Source of the DNA: Nesterenkonia salmonea | GTDB lineage: Bacteria; Actinomycetota; Actinomycetes; Actinomycetales; Micrococcaceae | Reading direction: 5' to 3' | Assembly: GCF_005771525.1 (NCBI RefSeq) | Contig: NZ_VAVZ01000011.1 | Span: 1 to 64,000 of the forward strand | Length of the DNA stretch: 64,000 nt | Shown here: positions 987-58,759 of the stretch, in pieces | How the letters are laid out: each line of letters opens with the position of its first letter | Numbering within the stretch: the stretch's first letter is position 1 | Notes under the pieces: generated by a model | Database searches by the model: none | Told to the model about the DNA's origin: nothing | Seen by the model: the letters and a program-made list of their open reading frames with translations, nothing else | Position numbers and translations under genes: made by a program

Positions 987-1580
987 TCAGGTCAGCTGAG
1001 AGGTGGTAAGACAGGTCGGATCGCCTTCTCTGGTTGAGATCGGTGCGGTCGATGTCAGGCCATCGTATTCAATGGTGAGTTCGGCATCTATGTCGCGGGG
1101 AAGCCACAGCCCGAAGAACCCGTTGTCGTGTGTTCGCGCAGTTTCGTTGACCAGGACCTCCCCGGTGCCTTCCTCAACCACCGTCACTTCCAACTCTTCA
1201 TTGCTCATCTCTCCGACACATGTCGTCAAGCTGTGGAAGAAGCACTCGTGGGTCTGGTCTACATAGGGCGCGACCGAGACGTAGAACTCATCCTCGGGCA
1301 GGGGGACCCAGGATTCGTTGCCCTGATCATCGACCATCACCACCGCTTCAGTTTCAACGGATGCGACAAAATCGGTGGGGCGCTCCTCCAACGGCAACCT
1401 TTCGAGTTTTTCGACAACTTCCCGCCCGGAGGCGTCCTCCAATCCCGAGGCTGACAGCGGAGTGTCGCTGGCGCCAGAAGGTGATGAGGGGTCTTGCGAC
1501 GCACATCCCGCGATAAGCACCATCACGGCAAACGCTGCGGCGGTTGTCCTGAAGCGTCCGGCGTGGTTGCTCCGATTCAT
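987..1580 (-). CDS. cueP: CueP-like copper-binding lipoprotein
   Basis: This 197-residue protein has a lipoprotein signal peptide with lipobox LIAGC (Cys26), so it should be anchored on the outer face of the membrane. The mature part matches the CueP family: the block HECFFHSLTTCVGE, the block TARTHDNGFFGLWLPR, and the C-terminal DPTCLTT. The three conserved metal-binding cysteines of Salmonella CueP are present as Cys113, Cys121 and Cys190 with nearly the same spacing. CueP binds and buffers periplasmic copper; here it would bind copper outside the membrane of a Gram-positive cell. It lies convergent to csoR and just downstream of the DUF305 gene. The match rests on recalled family motifs and is strong. 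Confidence 0.88.
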   Translation of the reverse strand: MNRSNHAGRFRTTAAAFAVMVLIAGCASQDPSSPSGASDTPLSASGLEDASGREVVEKLERLPLEERPTDFVASVETEAVVMVDDQGNESWVPLPEDEFYVSVAPYVDQTHECFFHSLTTCVGEMSNEELEVTVVEEGTGEVLVNETARTHDNGFFGLWLPRDIDAELTIEYDGLTSTAPISTREGDPTCLTTSQLT

Positions 1581-1638
1581 AGTCAGGCCTCCTCGGCACT
1601 GGGTAGTTCGGCAATTTGTTGGAAAGCCCGGTTTCGGT

Positions 1639-23989: not shown

Positions 23990-24065
23990 CGCACCAGCCT
24001 AAGTGACTTCAGTCACGCTTTGGGTTGGCTTCTGGGGATGATTGTAGGGTGGTCACAACCGACCA

Positions 24066-24180
24066 GCACAGGCGGCTAGGGTTCCGCCGGCATTTGCCGG
24101 GACTGGGTCGAGCGCCGCGATGTGCCGCCCTAGGCGGCACGGATCTTACGGGATAGAAACCTCCAGGAGCAGTGTCGGCA
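24066..24180 (+). promoter_or_regulatory. ykkC-class riboswitch (guanidine-I-like) upstream of MFS gene
   Basis: The invariant 11-nt block CTAGGGTTCCG is at 24076-24086, with an inner hairpin CCGGC/GCCGG (24087-24100) and ACTGG at 24102-24106. The P1 closing helix pairs GGCG (24071-24074) with CGCC (24113-24116). A P3-type hairpin (24122-24140) leads into CACGG (24138-24142), followed by GGGATAGAAACCTCCAGGAG (24150-24169), which corresponds to the conserved 3' block of ykkC RNAs. A stem CGGCATG/CATGCCG (24176-24193) near the start region could be the expression platform. Base differences (ACTGGGTCGAGCG versus ACTGGTCCGAGAG) leave the ligand open. Confidence 0.82.
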
Positions 24181-24214
24181 TGTTGTCATGCCGTCATCTG
24201 ATTGAGAGGTTTTC

Positions 24215-25447
24215 ATGAGGTCACCCTCGTTTCCTTCCGATTTTCCGCCTTTCCGCCGTCTGGTTTTCGCTCTGGCATTCAGTGTGGGGGTCAGCTTCGG
24301 TGCCATCCTCTACGGCACCTCAGTTTTGATTACGTCTGGCGCGGCAGGTGCCGATTTCTCTGTGGGGCTGCTTTCTGCGGCGTTCTCCGGTTCCGTACTG
24401 ACTGGAGCTGCGGTGGCGGTGCATGTGGGGCGTCGCGCTGATCGGCATGGGATTCGCGGAATGGTAGCCCTGGGCGGAATCCTGGTGTTTCTGGGGTTCT
24501 TAGGTTTCGCAGCCAGCACTTCTCAGTGGCAAGTTCTTGCCGCATGGTGGCTCTTGGTGGGTCCGGGCAGCGCCATGGTGCTGTTCGAACCGGCATTCGT
24601 GGCGATCCAGCAGTGGTTCGACCGCGAACGCCGTAACCGTGCGGCGGGAACCCTGACGCTGATCACTGGTCTTGCCGGACCAATTTTTATCCCGTCCACC
24701 TCATACATGACCGACCTTGTGGGGTGGCGTGTCACCGCAATCCTGTTGGGCACCTGCGTGCTGCTCGCCTCCTGGCTGACTGCAGGGTGGGCGTTACGCA
24801 CAGCGCCTCCGCCTGCACGCGCGCCCGCCGAGGCGACACCTGCGAAGTCCCCCGCCGAGCCTTCTAACCCTTCGACCTCCCGATGGCGGAATACCCCGGC
24901 AGGTTTTGTCCCACTGACAGTCGCAGTGGCGCTCACCATGGCAGTACTGGAGGCCTTCAATGTGCACCGTATCGCGCGGTTTGAAGCCACAGGTTTTGAC
25001 CCCACGGTGGTCGCGTGGTGGGCTGCGGCCGTCGGACTGTTGAGCCTTCCAGCACGATTCCTGCTGCCTTTGCTGGCTAATCGATTCGATTCGGCCAAGC
25101 TCTACATGACATTGACAGTGCTGATCATGCCTGCCATCTGGCTTGCCATCCGCGGAACCGAAGCCTGGGAGATGCATGGGCACTTCATCATTTTCGGCCT
25201 GCTGTTCGGGGCCTTCATCCCGCTACGTGCGGTCATTATGAGTGACTGGTACGCCGGGACCCGGTTTGGGGCCCTGATGGGGGTTCAGGCGGTGGCCATC
25301 GCGTTAGGCCGGGCAGCCGGGCCGGCGGTGGTGGGCTGGCTGGCCGAGACCCCACTGGGCTATTCCGGTGGAATCGCACTACTTGCGGCACTGCTGGTCT
25401 TGACCCTGGGCCTGCTGATGGTGGCAGCGCGGCGTCGCCGAGGCTAG
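24215..25447 (+). CDS. MFS transporter under ykkC-class riboswitch control
   Basis: This 410-residue protein has 12 predicted membrane helices in two halves joined by a Pro/Ala/Ser-rich cytoplasmic loop (about 200-225). Motif-like segments: HVGRRADRHGIRGMVALGGI after helix 2 (motif A) and DWYAGTRFGALMGVQAVA in the second half. It looks like a general anion/drug-type MFS member and cannot be assigned a substrate from motifs. The ATG at 24215 follows GAGAGGT. If the riboswitch senses guanidine, this would be a candidate guanidine exporter; SMR proteins usually fill that role. The substrate is inference only. Confidence 0.85.
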   Translation: MRSPSFPSDFPPFRRLVFALAFSVGVSFGAILYGTSVLITSGAAGADFSVGLLSAAFSGSVLTGAAVAVHVGRRADRHGIRGMVALGGILVFLGFLGFAASTSQWQVLAAWWLLVGPGSAMVLFEPAFVAIQQWFDRERRNRAAGTLTLITGLAGPIFIPSTSYMTDLVGWRVTAILLGTCVLLASWLTAGWALRTAPPPARAPAEATPAKSPAEPSNPSTSRWRNTPAGFVPLTVAVALTMAVLEAFNVHRIARFEATGFDPTVVAWWAAAVGLLSLPARFLLPLLANRFDSAKLYMTLTVLIMPAIWLAIRGTEAWEMHGHFIIFGLLFGAFIPLRAVIMSDWYAGTRFGALMGVQAVAIALGRAAGPAVVGWLAETPLGYSGGIALLAALLVLTLGLLMVAARRRRG

Positions 25448-25689: not shown

Positions 25690-26121
25690 TCAGGAAGAGG
25701 ACAACACCAGCGTTTCTACAGAGGGGTGCCGATCACCCAACGCTTTGTCCAGAGTGACAAGGGTGAACTTCCCGGACTGAGCGAAGGCCGAGAGGTAATC
25801 ATCAGTCCAGAGCTTATGGCTCCCATCCCGACGGGCTGACATTGCACGCCATACTGCACCAGTTCCAGGTGGCTCGTGGCTCCAGACCACCCGGGAGTCA
25901 GCTTCAATGTCATCTACAGCACGCCAGGCCTCAGCGCGGGACACCGCATCTTTCCCAAGAGCCCGCGGGTTACTAATAAGCCGTAGGACGGCCATCTGGG
26001 TCACTCGGCACAGAGCTATCGGTTCTTCGACCTGATCTATCCATCGCCGTACCTCTGCATGATGGATGTGCCTGCCCCACATGGCCGCCAACCACACATT
26101 GACATCTGGGAGATAGCTCAT
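25690..26121 (-). CDS. vapC: PIN-domain toxin, VapC family
   Basis: This 143-residue protein has the PIN ribonuclease layout: Asp6 in LPDVNVWLAA, the RVTQMAVLRLISNP block typical of a mycobacterial-type VapC subgroup, WTDDYLSAFA and LVTLDKALGD supplying acidic residues. VapC toxins cleave tRNA or rRNA when freed from the antitoxin. Its ATG overlaps the vapB stop (ATGA at 26118-26121). The pair lies in opposite orientation between two copies of the aadA-like 5' region. Confidence 0.87.
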   Translation of the reverse strand: MSYLPDVNVWLAAMWGRHIHHAEVRRWIDQVEEPIALCRVTQMAVLRLISNPRALGKDAVSRAEAWRAVDDIEADSRVVWSHEPPGTGAVWRAMSARRDGSHKLWTDDYLSAFAQSGKFTLVTLDKALGDRHPSVETLVLSSS

Positions 26122-26449: not shown

Positions 26450-27217
26450 GTGCGAACGGATCCAGCCACTCTGCTCAAGAACTTGGAGCCATCACTACCC
26501 ACTGGGATCCTCGGGCTCTACCTGTGCGGCTCGGCGGCTCGCGGGGCGCAGGGCCCGCATAGCGATCTTGACCTGCTGGCTGTGCTGCAGGAATCGATCA
26601 CCCACCAAGAGCGCCGGCAGTTGGTCGCCTGCCTGTTGACGCTTTCCGGGTGGTCCGGCCATGCCGAGCACTTCCCCGAAGCCGCAAATAGGCAACCCCT
26701 GGAGTTCACCGCTGTGGTGCGTGGCGACGTCGTCGACTGGCCTTATCCGCCGCGGCTGGACTTTCAGTTCGGGGAATGGTTGCGGTCTGAGCTGATGGCT
26801 GGAGCTGTGCTGGAGTCTCAGCCCGAGCCGGATCTGGTGGCTTTCATCGCCGATGCGTGTCAAAATCACGTCACCTTATTCGGGGAACCACTGTACGCAC
26901 TGCTGGATCCCCCGCCTGCAGAGTTGGTTCGTTTGGCCTGCCGTGAAGGTGCACCGGGACTGCTGCAGGAGCTCCCCGGGGATGAACGTAACGCCTTGCT
27001 CACGTTGGCTCGAATGGTCACCACACTGGAAACCGGAGAGATCGTCCCGAAGGACCAGGCGGCACACGGGCTCGCTGCGCAACTTCCACCGGAGGATGGC
27101 AGCCTTATGGAGGCCGCTGCGGCAGAGTACCTGGGCCAATCAGTTGTGGACTGGCCCGCCCACCGGGACCGGGTCGAGTCTCTCGCTCAGCGACTAGTCT
27201 CGGCAATCTGCCGCTGA
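26450..27217 (+). CDS. AadA-like aminoglycoside nucleotidyltransferase
   Basis: This 255-residue protein has the ANT fold: LYLCGSAARG (Gly27-Ser28), PHSDLDLL with Asp39 and Asp41, and the putative catalytic base Glu85 in LEFTAVV. It is AadA-like over its length: DFQFGEWLRSELMAG, GDERNALLTLARM, ETGEIVPKDQAAHGLA and EYLGQ all have counterparts in ANT(3'')(9). It may adenylylate streptomycin or spectinomycin, though chromosomal relatives can have other substrates. The GTG start is 6 nt after TAGGCT, so the mRNA is probably leaderless. A truncated copy lies at 25607. Confidence 0.82.
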   Translation: MRTDPATLLKNLEPSLPTGILGLYLCGSAARGAQGPHSDLDLLAVLQESITHQERRQLVACLLTLSGWSGHAEHFPEAANRQPLEFTAVVRGDVVDWPYPPRLDFQFGEWLRSELMAGAVLESQPEPDLVAFIADACQNHVTLFGEPLYALLDPPPAELVRLACREGAPGLLQELPGDERNALLTLARMVTTLETGEIVPKDQAAHGLAAQLPPEDGSLMEAAAAEYLGQSVVDWPAHRDRVESLAQRLVSAICR

Positions 27218-27247: not shown

Positions 27248-27883
27248 ATGTCCAAGCGGCGGAAAAAGAACCGGGGAAACCCGCAGCGCACAGGTAGCAG
27301 CGACCCTGTACCCCCCAGGCCCAATCGGGGTACGCCTAGGTCCACTCCACAGGATGAGGGCTCACCACGCATTCTGGTTTACGCGCTGCTGGGCATCACT
27401 TTGTTCATGGGGTTGTACCTGTACGCCTACGCGATGCCGCAGCTGACCTATTTCGCCAATGGCCTGTCTATGCCAGGCACCCGGGTCACTGGGTACGACG
27501 TCGCCGACATCACAGCACTTCAGGCGGCCTTTGAAGATGACGCTGAGGGTCAGCTGAACTTCCTGCAAAAGACGGCGGGCATCATTTTCCCGGTCACAGT
27601 CCTGCTCTCGGCCTGGGCAACCCTCGGGCTGTTGGTCCGCGGCTGGTGGCGTTGGGTTGTGGTAGCTGGGGCCGTGGTCTTCGCCGCAGTGGATATCACC
27701 GAGAACTTCCTGATCGACGACATTGTGACCCAGGTACCCGTCGACGCGGAAGCCGTGGCGGTCAGCTCAGCGATGACAACTCTCAGCTGGGCCCTTCTTG
27801 CAGTGATTGGCGCCGCAGTCCTGGCGGTGATCCTGCGAGATTTCATCCTCACCGGGAAGCAACCGCGCCAGAAGGGCCCATAG
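27248..27883 (+). CDS. Hypothetical membrane protein
   Basis: This 211-residue protein has a strong GGAGG ribosome-binding site. It has a basic, Pro-rich N-terminus and about four membrane helices (LVYALLGITLFMGLYLYAYA; FPVTVLLSAWATLGLLV; WVVVAGAVVFAAV; LLAVIGAAVLAVIL). The first long outside loop and the loop near AVDITENFLIDD are acidic. No family is recognised. It follows the aadA-like gene by 30 bp and may be co-transcribed. Confidence 0.65.
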   Translation: MSKRRKKNRGNPQRTGSSDPVPPRPNRGTPRSTPQDEGSPRILVYALLGITLFMGLYLYAYAMPQLTYFANGLSMPGTRVTGYDVADITALQAAFEDDAEGQLNFLQKTAGIIFPVTVLLSAWATLGLLVRGWWRWVVVAGAVVFAAVDITENFLIDDIVTQVPVDAEAVAVSSAMTTLSWALLAVIGAAVLAVILRDFILTGKQPRQKGP

Positions 27884-57690: not shown

Positions 57691-58362
57691 TTACCCCTGT
57701 TCAGCGGCTCCCAGATCGAGGCCCATCTGCCAGAAGGCCGATTCCATGCGCGTGGCAGTAGCAAAGGTTTCAGCGACTTCCCTGAACCGTGACTCTGGGA
57801 GGAAGCGCTCACCCAGGGCGTCGATCTCAGCGATGGCGTCTGCTGCCAGCTGCTGCGACTGCTCGGAGGAATACTCAGCGATCCACTCAGCGTAGGGATG
57901 GTCCGGATTGGCCTGTAGCGCGGGCTTGAGCCGGGCACCGATCTCCGCATAGCCCACCACACAGGGAGACAGTGCCACGTGAAGGTCGAGCAGGTCACCC
58001 CTCATGCCGGTATCAAGCACGTACCGCGTGTATGCCACGGTGGCGGGATGTTCTGGCGTCGCCTCCATCTGTTCCCGACTGATGCCCCACTCGGCGCAGA
58101 GTCTGACGTGCAGTTCTGTTTCCTCAACTGAGGCGTTGAGCCCCCGCAGCCCCTGGGTGATATCCGCGAGGGTGCGCCCCTTATAGGCGGCCAGAGCGTA
58201 GGCACGAGCGAACTGTATGAGGAACAGGTAGTCCTGGATGAGGTAGTTCCGGAAAGCCGCCTTCGGCAGAGTTCCGGCTTCCAACTGCTGGAGGAAGCTG
58301 TGACCGGTGTAGGTCGACCATTCCGTGCCGGCAGCGGTCTTCAGACGGTTGAACAGCGTCAT
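57691..58362 (-). CDS. tenA: TenA-family aminopyrimidine aminohydrolase (thiaminase II)
   Basis: This 223-residue protein has the TenA fold with FRNYLIQDYLFLIQFARAYA, the catalytic Cys in VALSPCVVGYAEIG and acidic residues in ATRMESAFW. It salvages degraded thiamine by hydrolysing aminopyrimidines. A TPP riboswitch lies immediately upstream, supporting the thiamine role. GGAAAGGA is 7 nt before the ATG. Confidence 0.93.
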   Translation of the reverse strand: MTLFNRLKTAAGTEWSTYTGHSFLQQLEAGTLPKAAFRNYLIQDYLFLIQFARAYALAAYKGRTLADITQGLRGLNASVEETELHVRLCAEWGISREQMEATPEHPATVAYTRYVLDTGMRGDLLDLHVALSPCVVGYAEIGARLKPALQANPDHPYAEWIAEYSSEQSQQLAADAIAEIDALGERFLPESRFREVAETFATATRMESAFWQMGLDLGAAEQG

Positions 58363-58373
58363 GCGGTATTCCT

Positions 58374-58461
58374 TTCCCTACGGCGGTATGAGCCGCGTCA
58401 GGTTCATAGGGTCCCGCGCCGTGGTCAGCGCGATCTCAGCTCTTGTGAAAGCTCCCCTCGG
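58374..58461 (-). promoter_or_regulatory. TPP riboswitch upstream of tenA
   Basis: On the minus strand the thi-box elements appear in order: GGGGAGC, GCTGAGAT, GACCCTATGAACCTGA and CCGTAGGGA. It covers the space between promoter and ribosome-binding site, with the AAGGA site directly after the closing stem, so translational control is likely. Confidence 0.95.
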
Positions 58462-58759
58462 ACAGTAATGACGCTATCAAAGCACTCATTTGGTGTGACC
58501 CTCATCGCAATGGGAGCGCATTTTCCCTTGCCAGAGCACGACGCCGCCACACTCACCTCAATGAAGAACACAATTGCGCAAGTTGGGTGTTGCGTAATCC
58601 GCGAAGTGCTGGGTAAGCTAGGGATCACTTGGGTGCGACACAGCGAGAGAGACAACTCGCTGAGAGGGGATCAGCTCGGTGCGGGCTGGTCCCCTCACTC
58701 TTCAAGCTGAGGTGTGGACCTGACTCACCAGCCACGGGCAGATCAGCGATCATGGACTC
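58462..58759. other. Intergenic region with one strong hairpin
   Basis: Beyond the tenA promoter region, the only structure seen is a 12-bp stem (58664-58675 with 58685-58696, one G-U) of terminator or leader type ahead of the hydrolase gene. No gene is supported. Confidence 0.5.

Follow-up and report, generated by a model that had tools for sequence, protein, structure and literature searches.

The leader at positions 24057–24214 of the window, the whole 64,000-nucleotide stretch of Nesterenkonia salmonea contig NZ_VAVZ01000011.1 analysed here, is likely to belong to the orphan 2d-type group of ykkC-fold riboswitches, within a branch of its own tied to genes of the major facilitator superfamily (MFS). 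It is probably not a guanidine-I riboswitch. A permissive Rfam scan of 251 nucleotides matched RF00442 (guanidine-I) at 24065–24171 with 42.2 bits and an E value of 1.4e-6, and the second-best family at the leader had an E value of 2.1. Across the genome, RF00442 matched two places, contig C51 (45.7 bits) and the window copy (E 4.3e-6). The E values against all of Rfam and against the genome indicate more than a chance match, while the score of the window leader falls short of the RF00442 gathering cut-off of 63 bits. A gathering-threshold Rfam scan of the whole window reported nothing at 24 kb. The covariance-model check suggested in a preliminary description of this DNA came out well on significance and short on gathering score. 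The total scores of all models used here overlap and leave the class assignment unsettled; the pocket bases carry the argument.

Pocket bases and layout of the leader

Two spots were read in a comparison set of 44 ykkC-fold RNAs: 13 from MFS, 19 from EamA and 2 from TauE loci, and 10 of guanidine-I type. The base before the 3' strand of helix P1 is C in all 34 MFS, EamA and TauE RNAs, placing a C at the bulge in 13 of 13 MFS leaders, and A in all 10 guanidine-I-type RNAs. At the start of P3, 33 of the 34 carry A[TC]CT.A; CACGG occurs in none of the 34 (0 of 13 MFS leaders) and in 10 of 10 guanidine-I-type RNAs. In guanidine-I structures the AG bulge of P1 belongs to the guanidinium pocket (PMC11661666), and a pyrimidine in place of A46 has served to tell the remaining ykkC RNAs apart from guanidine-I (PMC6031431). 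Position 24113 would be the A46 counterpart, since it directly precedes the 3' strand of P1 and is the place where every guanidine-I-type RNA has A and every other RNA of the set has C. Guanidine sensing is disfavoured because these pocket bases are replaced (bulge A by C; CACGG absent), as in EamA and TauE leaders. A guanidine-I riboswitch with an MFS exporter was rejected on the same bases.

Passages of PMC7266159 and PMC5912903 assign EamA (phn_DUF6) and TauE targets to subtype 2d, describe it as closest to guanidine-I and give it no ligand as of 2018 and 2020. No 2d ligand was noticed in the titles and abstract openings of the matches listed from the open-licence literature. The window leader combines the ykkC fold and the non-guanidine marker base with the pocket strands of EamA and TauE leaders. 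Its target is MFS_1 and not EamA or TauE, and it is therefore classed as a new branch next to 2d rather than as a plain member. MFS leaders share with the EamA and TauE leaders, as partly described for 2d, the bulge C, the A[UC]CU strand in P3, the lack of CACGG and a transporter target. They differ in their MFS target, in a GGKUCRAGC junction, in the loop (AUAGAA) and in the P3 3' strand, which carries UNCA, 2d itself being known by description. The string "MFS" is absent from the main texts of PMC5912903, PMC7266159 and PMC12186494, as is "major facilitator" from those of PMC7266159 and PMC12186494. The target accordingly looks new within the searchable literature, in line with the earlier remark that an MFS target is uncommon.

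The features of the leader, all on the plus strand, are as follows.

24045–24050, plus: putative -10 element TAGGGT, picked by eye; similar hexamers stand at about the same distance upstream of CCG in sister leaders
24059–24064, plus: P0 5' strand CCGACC, partners 24172 and 24174–24178
24072–24076, plus: P1 5' strand GCGGC, partners 24114–24118, 100% paired, with one C-G pair changed to U-A in 2 of 11 leaders
24076–24086, plus: conserved ykkC motif CTAGGGTTCCG, without variation in alignment A1
24084–24106, plus: P1a/P1b hairpin, two-sided change in 4 of 9 pairs (11 sequences)
24110–24113, plus: pocket bulge GAGC; C 24113 replaces the guanidine-I A (RF00442 position 52)
24114–24118, plus: P1 3' strand, pairs with 24072–24076
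24122–24140, plus: P2 hairpin GTGCCGC/GCGGCAC, whose end plus GG spells CACGG at 24138–24142
24143–24152, plus: P3 5' strand ATCTTACGGG, in place of guanidine-I CACGG..GG
24153–24159, plus: P3 loop ATAGAAA (RF00442 consensus AuAAAAG)
24160–24168, plus: P3 3' strand CCTCCAGGA, complementary with the preceding AAA to the Shine-Dalgarno region
24172–24178, plus: P0 3' strand (G, then GTCGG), pairing in alignments A1 and A4
24176–24193, plus: hairpin CGGCATG-TTGT-CATGCCG in the predicted window fold, between aptamer and start codon
24204–24214, plus: Shine-Dalgarno region GAGAGGTTTTC, able to pair with the P3 3' strand
24215–25447, plus: MFS transporter open reading frame (ORF), 410 aa, PF07690

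The putative transcript start would fall near 24055–24059 and place the aptamer at the 5' end. Downstream of P2 lies a conserved strand, GATCTNAMGGGATAGAA (M = A or C). Within P3, TCT 24144–24146 can pair with GGA 24166–24168 in 11 of 11 MFS leaders, invariantly; in alignment A4 this helix has one pair with two-sided change in 2 of 20 sequences. The hairpin at 24176–24193 overlaps the P0 3' strand, and similar hairpins were seen by eye in the 11 leaders.

Much of the preliminary description is borne out. The RF00442 match and the ORF at 24215–25447 place a ykkC-fold riboswitch directly 5' of an MFS gene, and the motif CTAGGGTTCCG, the inner hairpin, ACTGG, the P1 closing helix, the GGGATAGAAACC..GGAG 3' block and the MFS ORF are all present in the right order. 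The unusual junction it pointed out is also real: GAGAG has become GAGCG in 11 of 11 rows, and the G of ACTGGG is confined to the window and L025. Two details need correction. The CACGG assigned to the end of a P3 hairpin consists of the three final bases of the 3' strand of P2 and a following GG; it stands at the P2/P3 border in 2 of 11 distinct sister leaders (window, L025) and was on that account rejected as part of P3. The related CCACGG of L033 lies farther upstream, away from this border. The proposed start at 24066 misses the P0 strand CCGACC.

Distribution, covariation and model scores

RF00442 was searched in 30 genomes of Nesterenkonia (Actinomycetota, Micrococcaceae) and at E ≤ 0.1 gave matches in 13 of them, at 15 places, none in any genome above the gathering cut-off. 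Thirteen intact leaders in 11 of the 30 genomes score 33.3–47.9 bits, each directly 5' of an MFS gene of the window family with 66–100% identity to the window's (tblastn). Two repeat the RNA of another (L024 that of L001, L035 that of L033), leaving 11 distinct leaders; L033 and L035, each close to a contig end in the same genome, could be a single locus. Homologues of the MFS protein occur on N. haasae, N. sphaerica and N. ebinurensis contigs at 66–95% identity. The genus also holds damaged copies. In G014, L032 (RNA 1501–1624, minus strand) keeps the P1 part, lacks P3 and the MFS gene, and runs into a gene whose window counterpart is at 27248. G013 has a broken leader, L034, and N. sphaerica has a worn one, L037 (4869–4965; 24.9 bits with model R1), before an MFS gene of 79% identity and in addition to a copy in a 2,007-bp segment described below.

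Alignment of the 11 distinct MFS leaders (A1) supports P0, P1, P1a, P1b, P2 and a two-part P3, with 98.2% of 385 cells paired and two-sided change in 8 of 35 pairs. None of 500 shuffles scored as high on either measure, and slid versions of the structure reached at most 45.3% paired. P0 is paired in 11 of 11 leaders, yet five of its six pairs are invariant. Adding eight EamA leaders and one TauE leader, fitted to the structure model (A4), raised the pairs changing on both sides to 18 of 35, with a covariation score of 0.402 against 0.158 for shuffled alignments. In A4, two-sided change is found in four of six P0 pairs, in one of three pairs of the outer P3 helix and in none of the inner P3 helix; 89.9% of cells are paired in this structure-fitted alignment.

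Wider searches used RF00442 and three further models, built from MFS leaders (R1), from EamA set A2 (R2) and jointly (R3). Within the order, RF00442 (E ≤ 0.001) was found in 14 of 396 genomes and R1 in 9 of 297, while R2 was found in 11 of 396 genomes of the phylum. R3 was found in 12 of 148 genomes of the window's class and, for one other class searched as two overlapping sets, in 8 of 178 and 7 of 119.

Genes in the comparison set were named by Pfam at all 19 EamA, 2 TauE and 10 guanidine-I-type loci, the EamA call of L047 being marginal (28.3 against 28.2). Among MFS targets, the window's was named by Pfam and the others by tblastn. The guanidine-I-type RNAs precede arginase-family genes (3), amino-acid permeases (3), DUF1989 (2), an SSF gene (1) and a solute-binding protein gene (1). 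Left out of the 44 were the relics L032, L034 and L037, L052 for want of a clear target gene, L100, whose motif the script did not find, and the repeat fetches L036, L038, L040, L053–L055, L058, L064–L074, L082, L085, L089, L091 and L095. Both L052 (1498–1613; bulge C) and L100 are weak ykkC-like matches, and L100 likewise has no clear target gene. L029, L031 and L044 were anchored on a second upstream CTAGGG (pairing 1/4), with bulge and strand in agreement with the alignments, and L094, which has one extra base in its P3 strand, was counted as "other". The P3 3' strand divides the set by group: CC-UNCA-GGA in MFS leaders, CC-YGGA-GGA in nine A2 EamA and two TauE leaders, and CC-UCGA in nine EamA leaders of a further group, EamA-B.

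Model scores partly connect these groups. R1 gives the window copy, one of its training sequences, 137.1 bits, like 10 other intact leaders. Trained on MFS leaders, it also scores EamA-B leaders of other classes at 69.6 (L057), 85.7 (L059) and 64.1 bits (L061), A2 EamA leaders at 41.2–53.4 and the TauE leader L056 at 49.1. R3 scores EamA-B leaders at 73.7–97.9, save L094 (52.9) and L096 (48.2), and the TauE leader L092 at 78.1. The guanidine-I-type RNA L042 also misses the RF00442 cut-off, at 59.9 bits.

Several results weigh against placing the leader in a 2d-type branch. R1 gives the EamA leader L063 just 28.2 bits, and the four of ten guanidine-I-type RNAs tested reach 21.1, 23.1, 24.1 and 40.5. 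R2 leaves the groups unseparated, with MFS leaders at 38.5–51.1 and guanidine-I-type RNAs at 25.1, 35.6, 40.4 and 46.0, and the R3 range of guanidine-I-type RNAs (32.4–52.2) overlaps L096 and comes to the margin of L094. The 34 RNAs still include the duplicates L024 and L035, and gene groups were labelled after the sequences had been read. The pocket table is therefore a description and no blind test, the models having come from the same groups. The "2d" label itself rests on the gene types described in papers, and the P3 pairs are invariant across the MFS leaders of A1. When MFS homologues were compared for the same leader, seven outside the genus, of 34–49% identity (L039, L075–L079, L081), showed no such RNA. 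R1 likewise found none at 11 weaker homologue loci (L012–L022, mostly paralogues within the genus), and R2 over these 18 loci gave one match at E ≤ 1 (L014, 13.2 bits, E 0.48).

Possible switching mechanism and mobility

The leader may act as a translational ON switch, because the strand that ends its aptamer is complementary to the Shine-Dalgarno region. The 26 nucleotides 5' of the start codon can pair with this P3 3' strand (AARCCUNCAGGA), and the resulting duplex has a predicted energy of -9.6 kcal/mol in the window and of -7.6 to -16.1 kcal/mol in 10 of 11 leaders. It also appears in the minimum-energy fold of the window leader. The variable base N of the P3 3' strand often tracks its partner, with L029 and L031 as exceptions. 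Start codons were chosen by hand for L001 (GTG) and L033 (TTG). On the opposing side, the duplex is missing in L027 (-2.8 kcal/mol), and it outdoes more than 95% of mononucleotide shuffles in just 5 of 11 leaders, with 5.6% of shuffles as good for the window.

Without ligand, the P3 3' strand AAACCTCCAGG would pair with the Shine-Dalgarno region before the MFS start and keep translation low. Ligand binding would let P3, P0 and the docked loop form, withdrawing the anti-Shine-Dalgarno strand and allowing the MFS protein to be made. That protein would most likely export the ligand or a near relative. Passages of PMC6031431 describe the guanidine-I, phosphoribosyl pyrophosphate (PRPP) and guanosine tetraphosphate (ppGpp) riboswitches as ON switches. 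An intrinsic terminator was rejected by eye alone: no U run follows the hairpin at 24176–24193, and TTTT at 24210–24213 lies in the Shine-Dalgarno region.

RNA and gene have moved together. The second genome copy sits in a 2,007-bp segment (L101 7522–9528, G000:C51) that holds riboswitch and MFS gene and is 99.4% identical to part of an N. sphaerica contig (L102 910–2916, G005:C28), with no alignment beyond the segment. In N. sphaerica a 34-nt direct repeat with one mismatch bounds the segment at both ends. There are 14 copies of its 27-nt core, AGAGGTTARTCCGCTTTTGAACTCGAC, in 7 of the 30 Nesterenkonia genomes at ≤ 3 mismatches (loci L103, L106, L107, L111, L112), against none for the reversed control, and similar bases often precede the core. 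Cores are spaced 1–3 kb apart in G004:C14 and G038:C3, and the core is possibly a cassette-type recombination site.

The surroundings of the two segment copies differ in content. The C51 stretch also holds an IS110-type transposase and a phage-integrase-family gene. The N. sphaerica segment adjoins an ORF with a protein-kinase domain and one with ThiF and Prok-E2_A (L102 30–587 and 4119–5936); such pairs occur in some defence islands. Near the MFS gene of the window lie a VapC-family PIN protein (25690–26121; 111.1 bits, cut-off 73.6) and an ANT(9)/AadA-like nucleotidyltransferase (26450–27217; 195.8 bits, cut-off 340). Rfam gathering thresholds also identify three tRNAs in the window and a thiamine pyrophosphate riboswitch at 58357–58468 on the minus strand (70.6 bits).

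The transporter, competing readings and a candidate ligand

The MFS protein matches PF07690 with 87.3 bits and is closest to monocarboxylate transporters, with SfMCT, a bacterial SLC16 homologue, as its best match in sequence and fold. SfMCT leads its NCBIfam matches, all below cut-off, with 77.2 bits (equivalog cut-off 320), followed by ArsK with 57.8 (cut-off 400), and is the sole match at E ≤ 0.01 in a PDB sequence search (2.3e-9). An AlphaFold2 model with a mean pLDDT (predicted local distance difference test score) of 87.2 has SfMCT as its best fold match (E 3e-12, TM-score 0.77), followed by MCT1, VMAT2, MCT2, MCT8 and OxlT. R281 aligns with SfMCT R280, the carboxylate-binding arginine of transmembrane helix 8, and Y383 with SfMCT Y383, each in 13 of 13 rows. 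Passages of PMC6573034 report that changing R280 of SfMCT to alanine abolishes lactate binding and transport, and that N276 is needed. The two proteins differ in being about 22% identical and in N276 and H250 of SfMCT, which are S277 and R255 in the MFS protein. The substrate could reasonably be a carboxylate or another small anion; the fold alone leaves its charge unsettled, because VMAT, a cation carrier, is also among the matches. A bold and tentative possibility is that the 2d-type pocket senses a small toxic organic anion of carboxylate, sulfonate or phosphonate type, and no guanidine-like cation, with three unrelated families, EamA, TauE/SafE and MCT-like MFS proteins that have the carboxylate-binding arginine, each exporting it.

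There is a modest chance that the MFS leaders form a ligand class of their own, split from the EamA and TauE leaders and sensing another compound. The P3 3' strand differs between MFS (UNCA), EamA/TauE (YGGA) and EamA-B (UCGA) leaders, and PMC6031431 reports that the single change G96A in that region converts an aptamer for PRPP into one for ppGpp. The AUAGAA loop and the gene family are likewise unseen with the other groups. However, EamA-B leaders bridge the groups by their R1 scores (64.1–85.7), and L057, L059 and L061 show, by eye, P0 and a GGCAC-type hairpin. The common A[UC]CUNA strand and bulge C further suggest one pocket.

It is unlikely that the leader is a guanidine-I riboswitch which has diverged but kept its response to guanidinium, controlling an MFS exporter of guanidine. 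The window shares with RF00442, the sole Rfam family below E 1 here, the overall fold, CUAGGGUUCCG, CUGG and the loop, and both its loop and P1 domain stay near the guanidine-I consensus. R2 fails to separate MFS leaders from guanidine-I-type RNAs, some of which also precede transporters (amino-acid permease, SSF and solute-binding protein genes). Yet the bulge A, part of the guanidinium pocket (AG bulge, PMC11661666; A46, PMC6031431), is C in 13 of 13 leaders, and CACGG is gone; the score stays at 42.2 bits against 63, and anion transporters are the closest relatives of the MFS protein. Of the two options first offered for this leader, a guanidine-responsive exporter or a ligand variant, the pocket bases favour the second and speak against the first.

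A ppGpp, PRPP or nucleoside-diphosphate riboswitch (2a–2c) before a transporter is very unlikely. Like the window leader, the PRPP (2b) and ppGpp (2a) classes have a pyrimidine as marker base and close their ends with a P0 helix, and P0 is present in the PRPP aptamer and lacking from guanidine-I, according to passages of PMC6031431. The same passages assign C75, A76 and C77 to the PRPP and ppGpp pockets; these would correspond to the CAC strand, for which the window has UCU, the residue roles being given there for PRPP and ppGpp only. The ligands of these two classes are phosphorylated and their targets purine and amino-acid genes, and part of PMC7266159 gives the main genes of 2a–2c as amino-acid or purine biosynthesis genes or NUDIX/HAD hydrolases. 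A decayed, non-functional relic is hardly tenable: the genus does hold such relics in L032, L034 and N. sphaerica L037, but the window copy, itself a training sequence, reaches 137.1 bits with R1 like 10 intact leaders, and the set shows compensatory changes.

A 2d-type riboswitch with its own MFS branch therefore remains the favoured assignment, and it has practical consequences. The 13 intact Nesterenkonia copies go unlisted at the RF00442 cut-off, which makes a case for a covariance model of their own, and the short leader suits in-line probing. Guanidine itself was discovered as a ligand through reporter arrays across growth conditions (PMC7266159, PMC12186494). The MFS link offers a first hint toward a small organic anion as the orphan 2d-type ligand. 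Because the new target family has a relative of solved structure and a substrate-binding residue that is known, it narrows the candidate chemistry in a way that EamA and TauE alone do not. If the anion proposal is true, one RNA fold would have moved from sensing a cation to sensing a small anion; the MFS leaders may even have separated further and acquired a ligand of their own.

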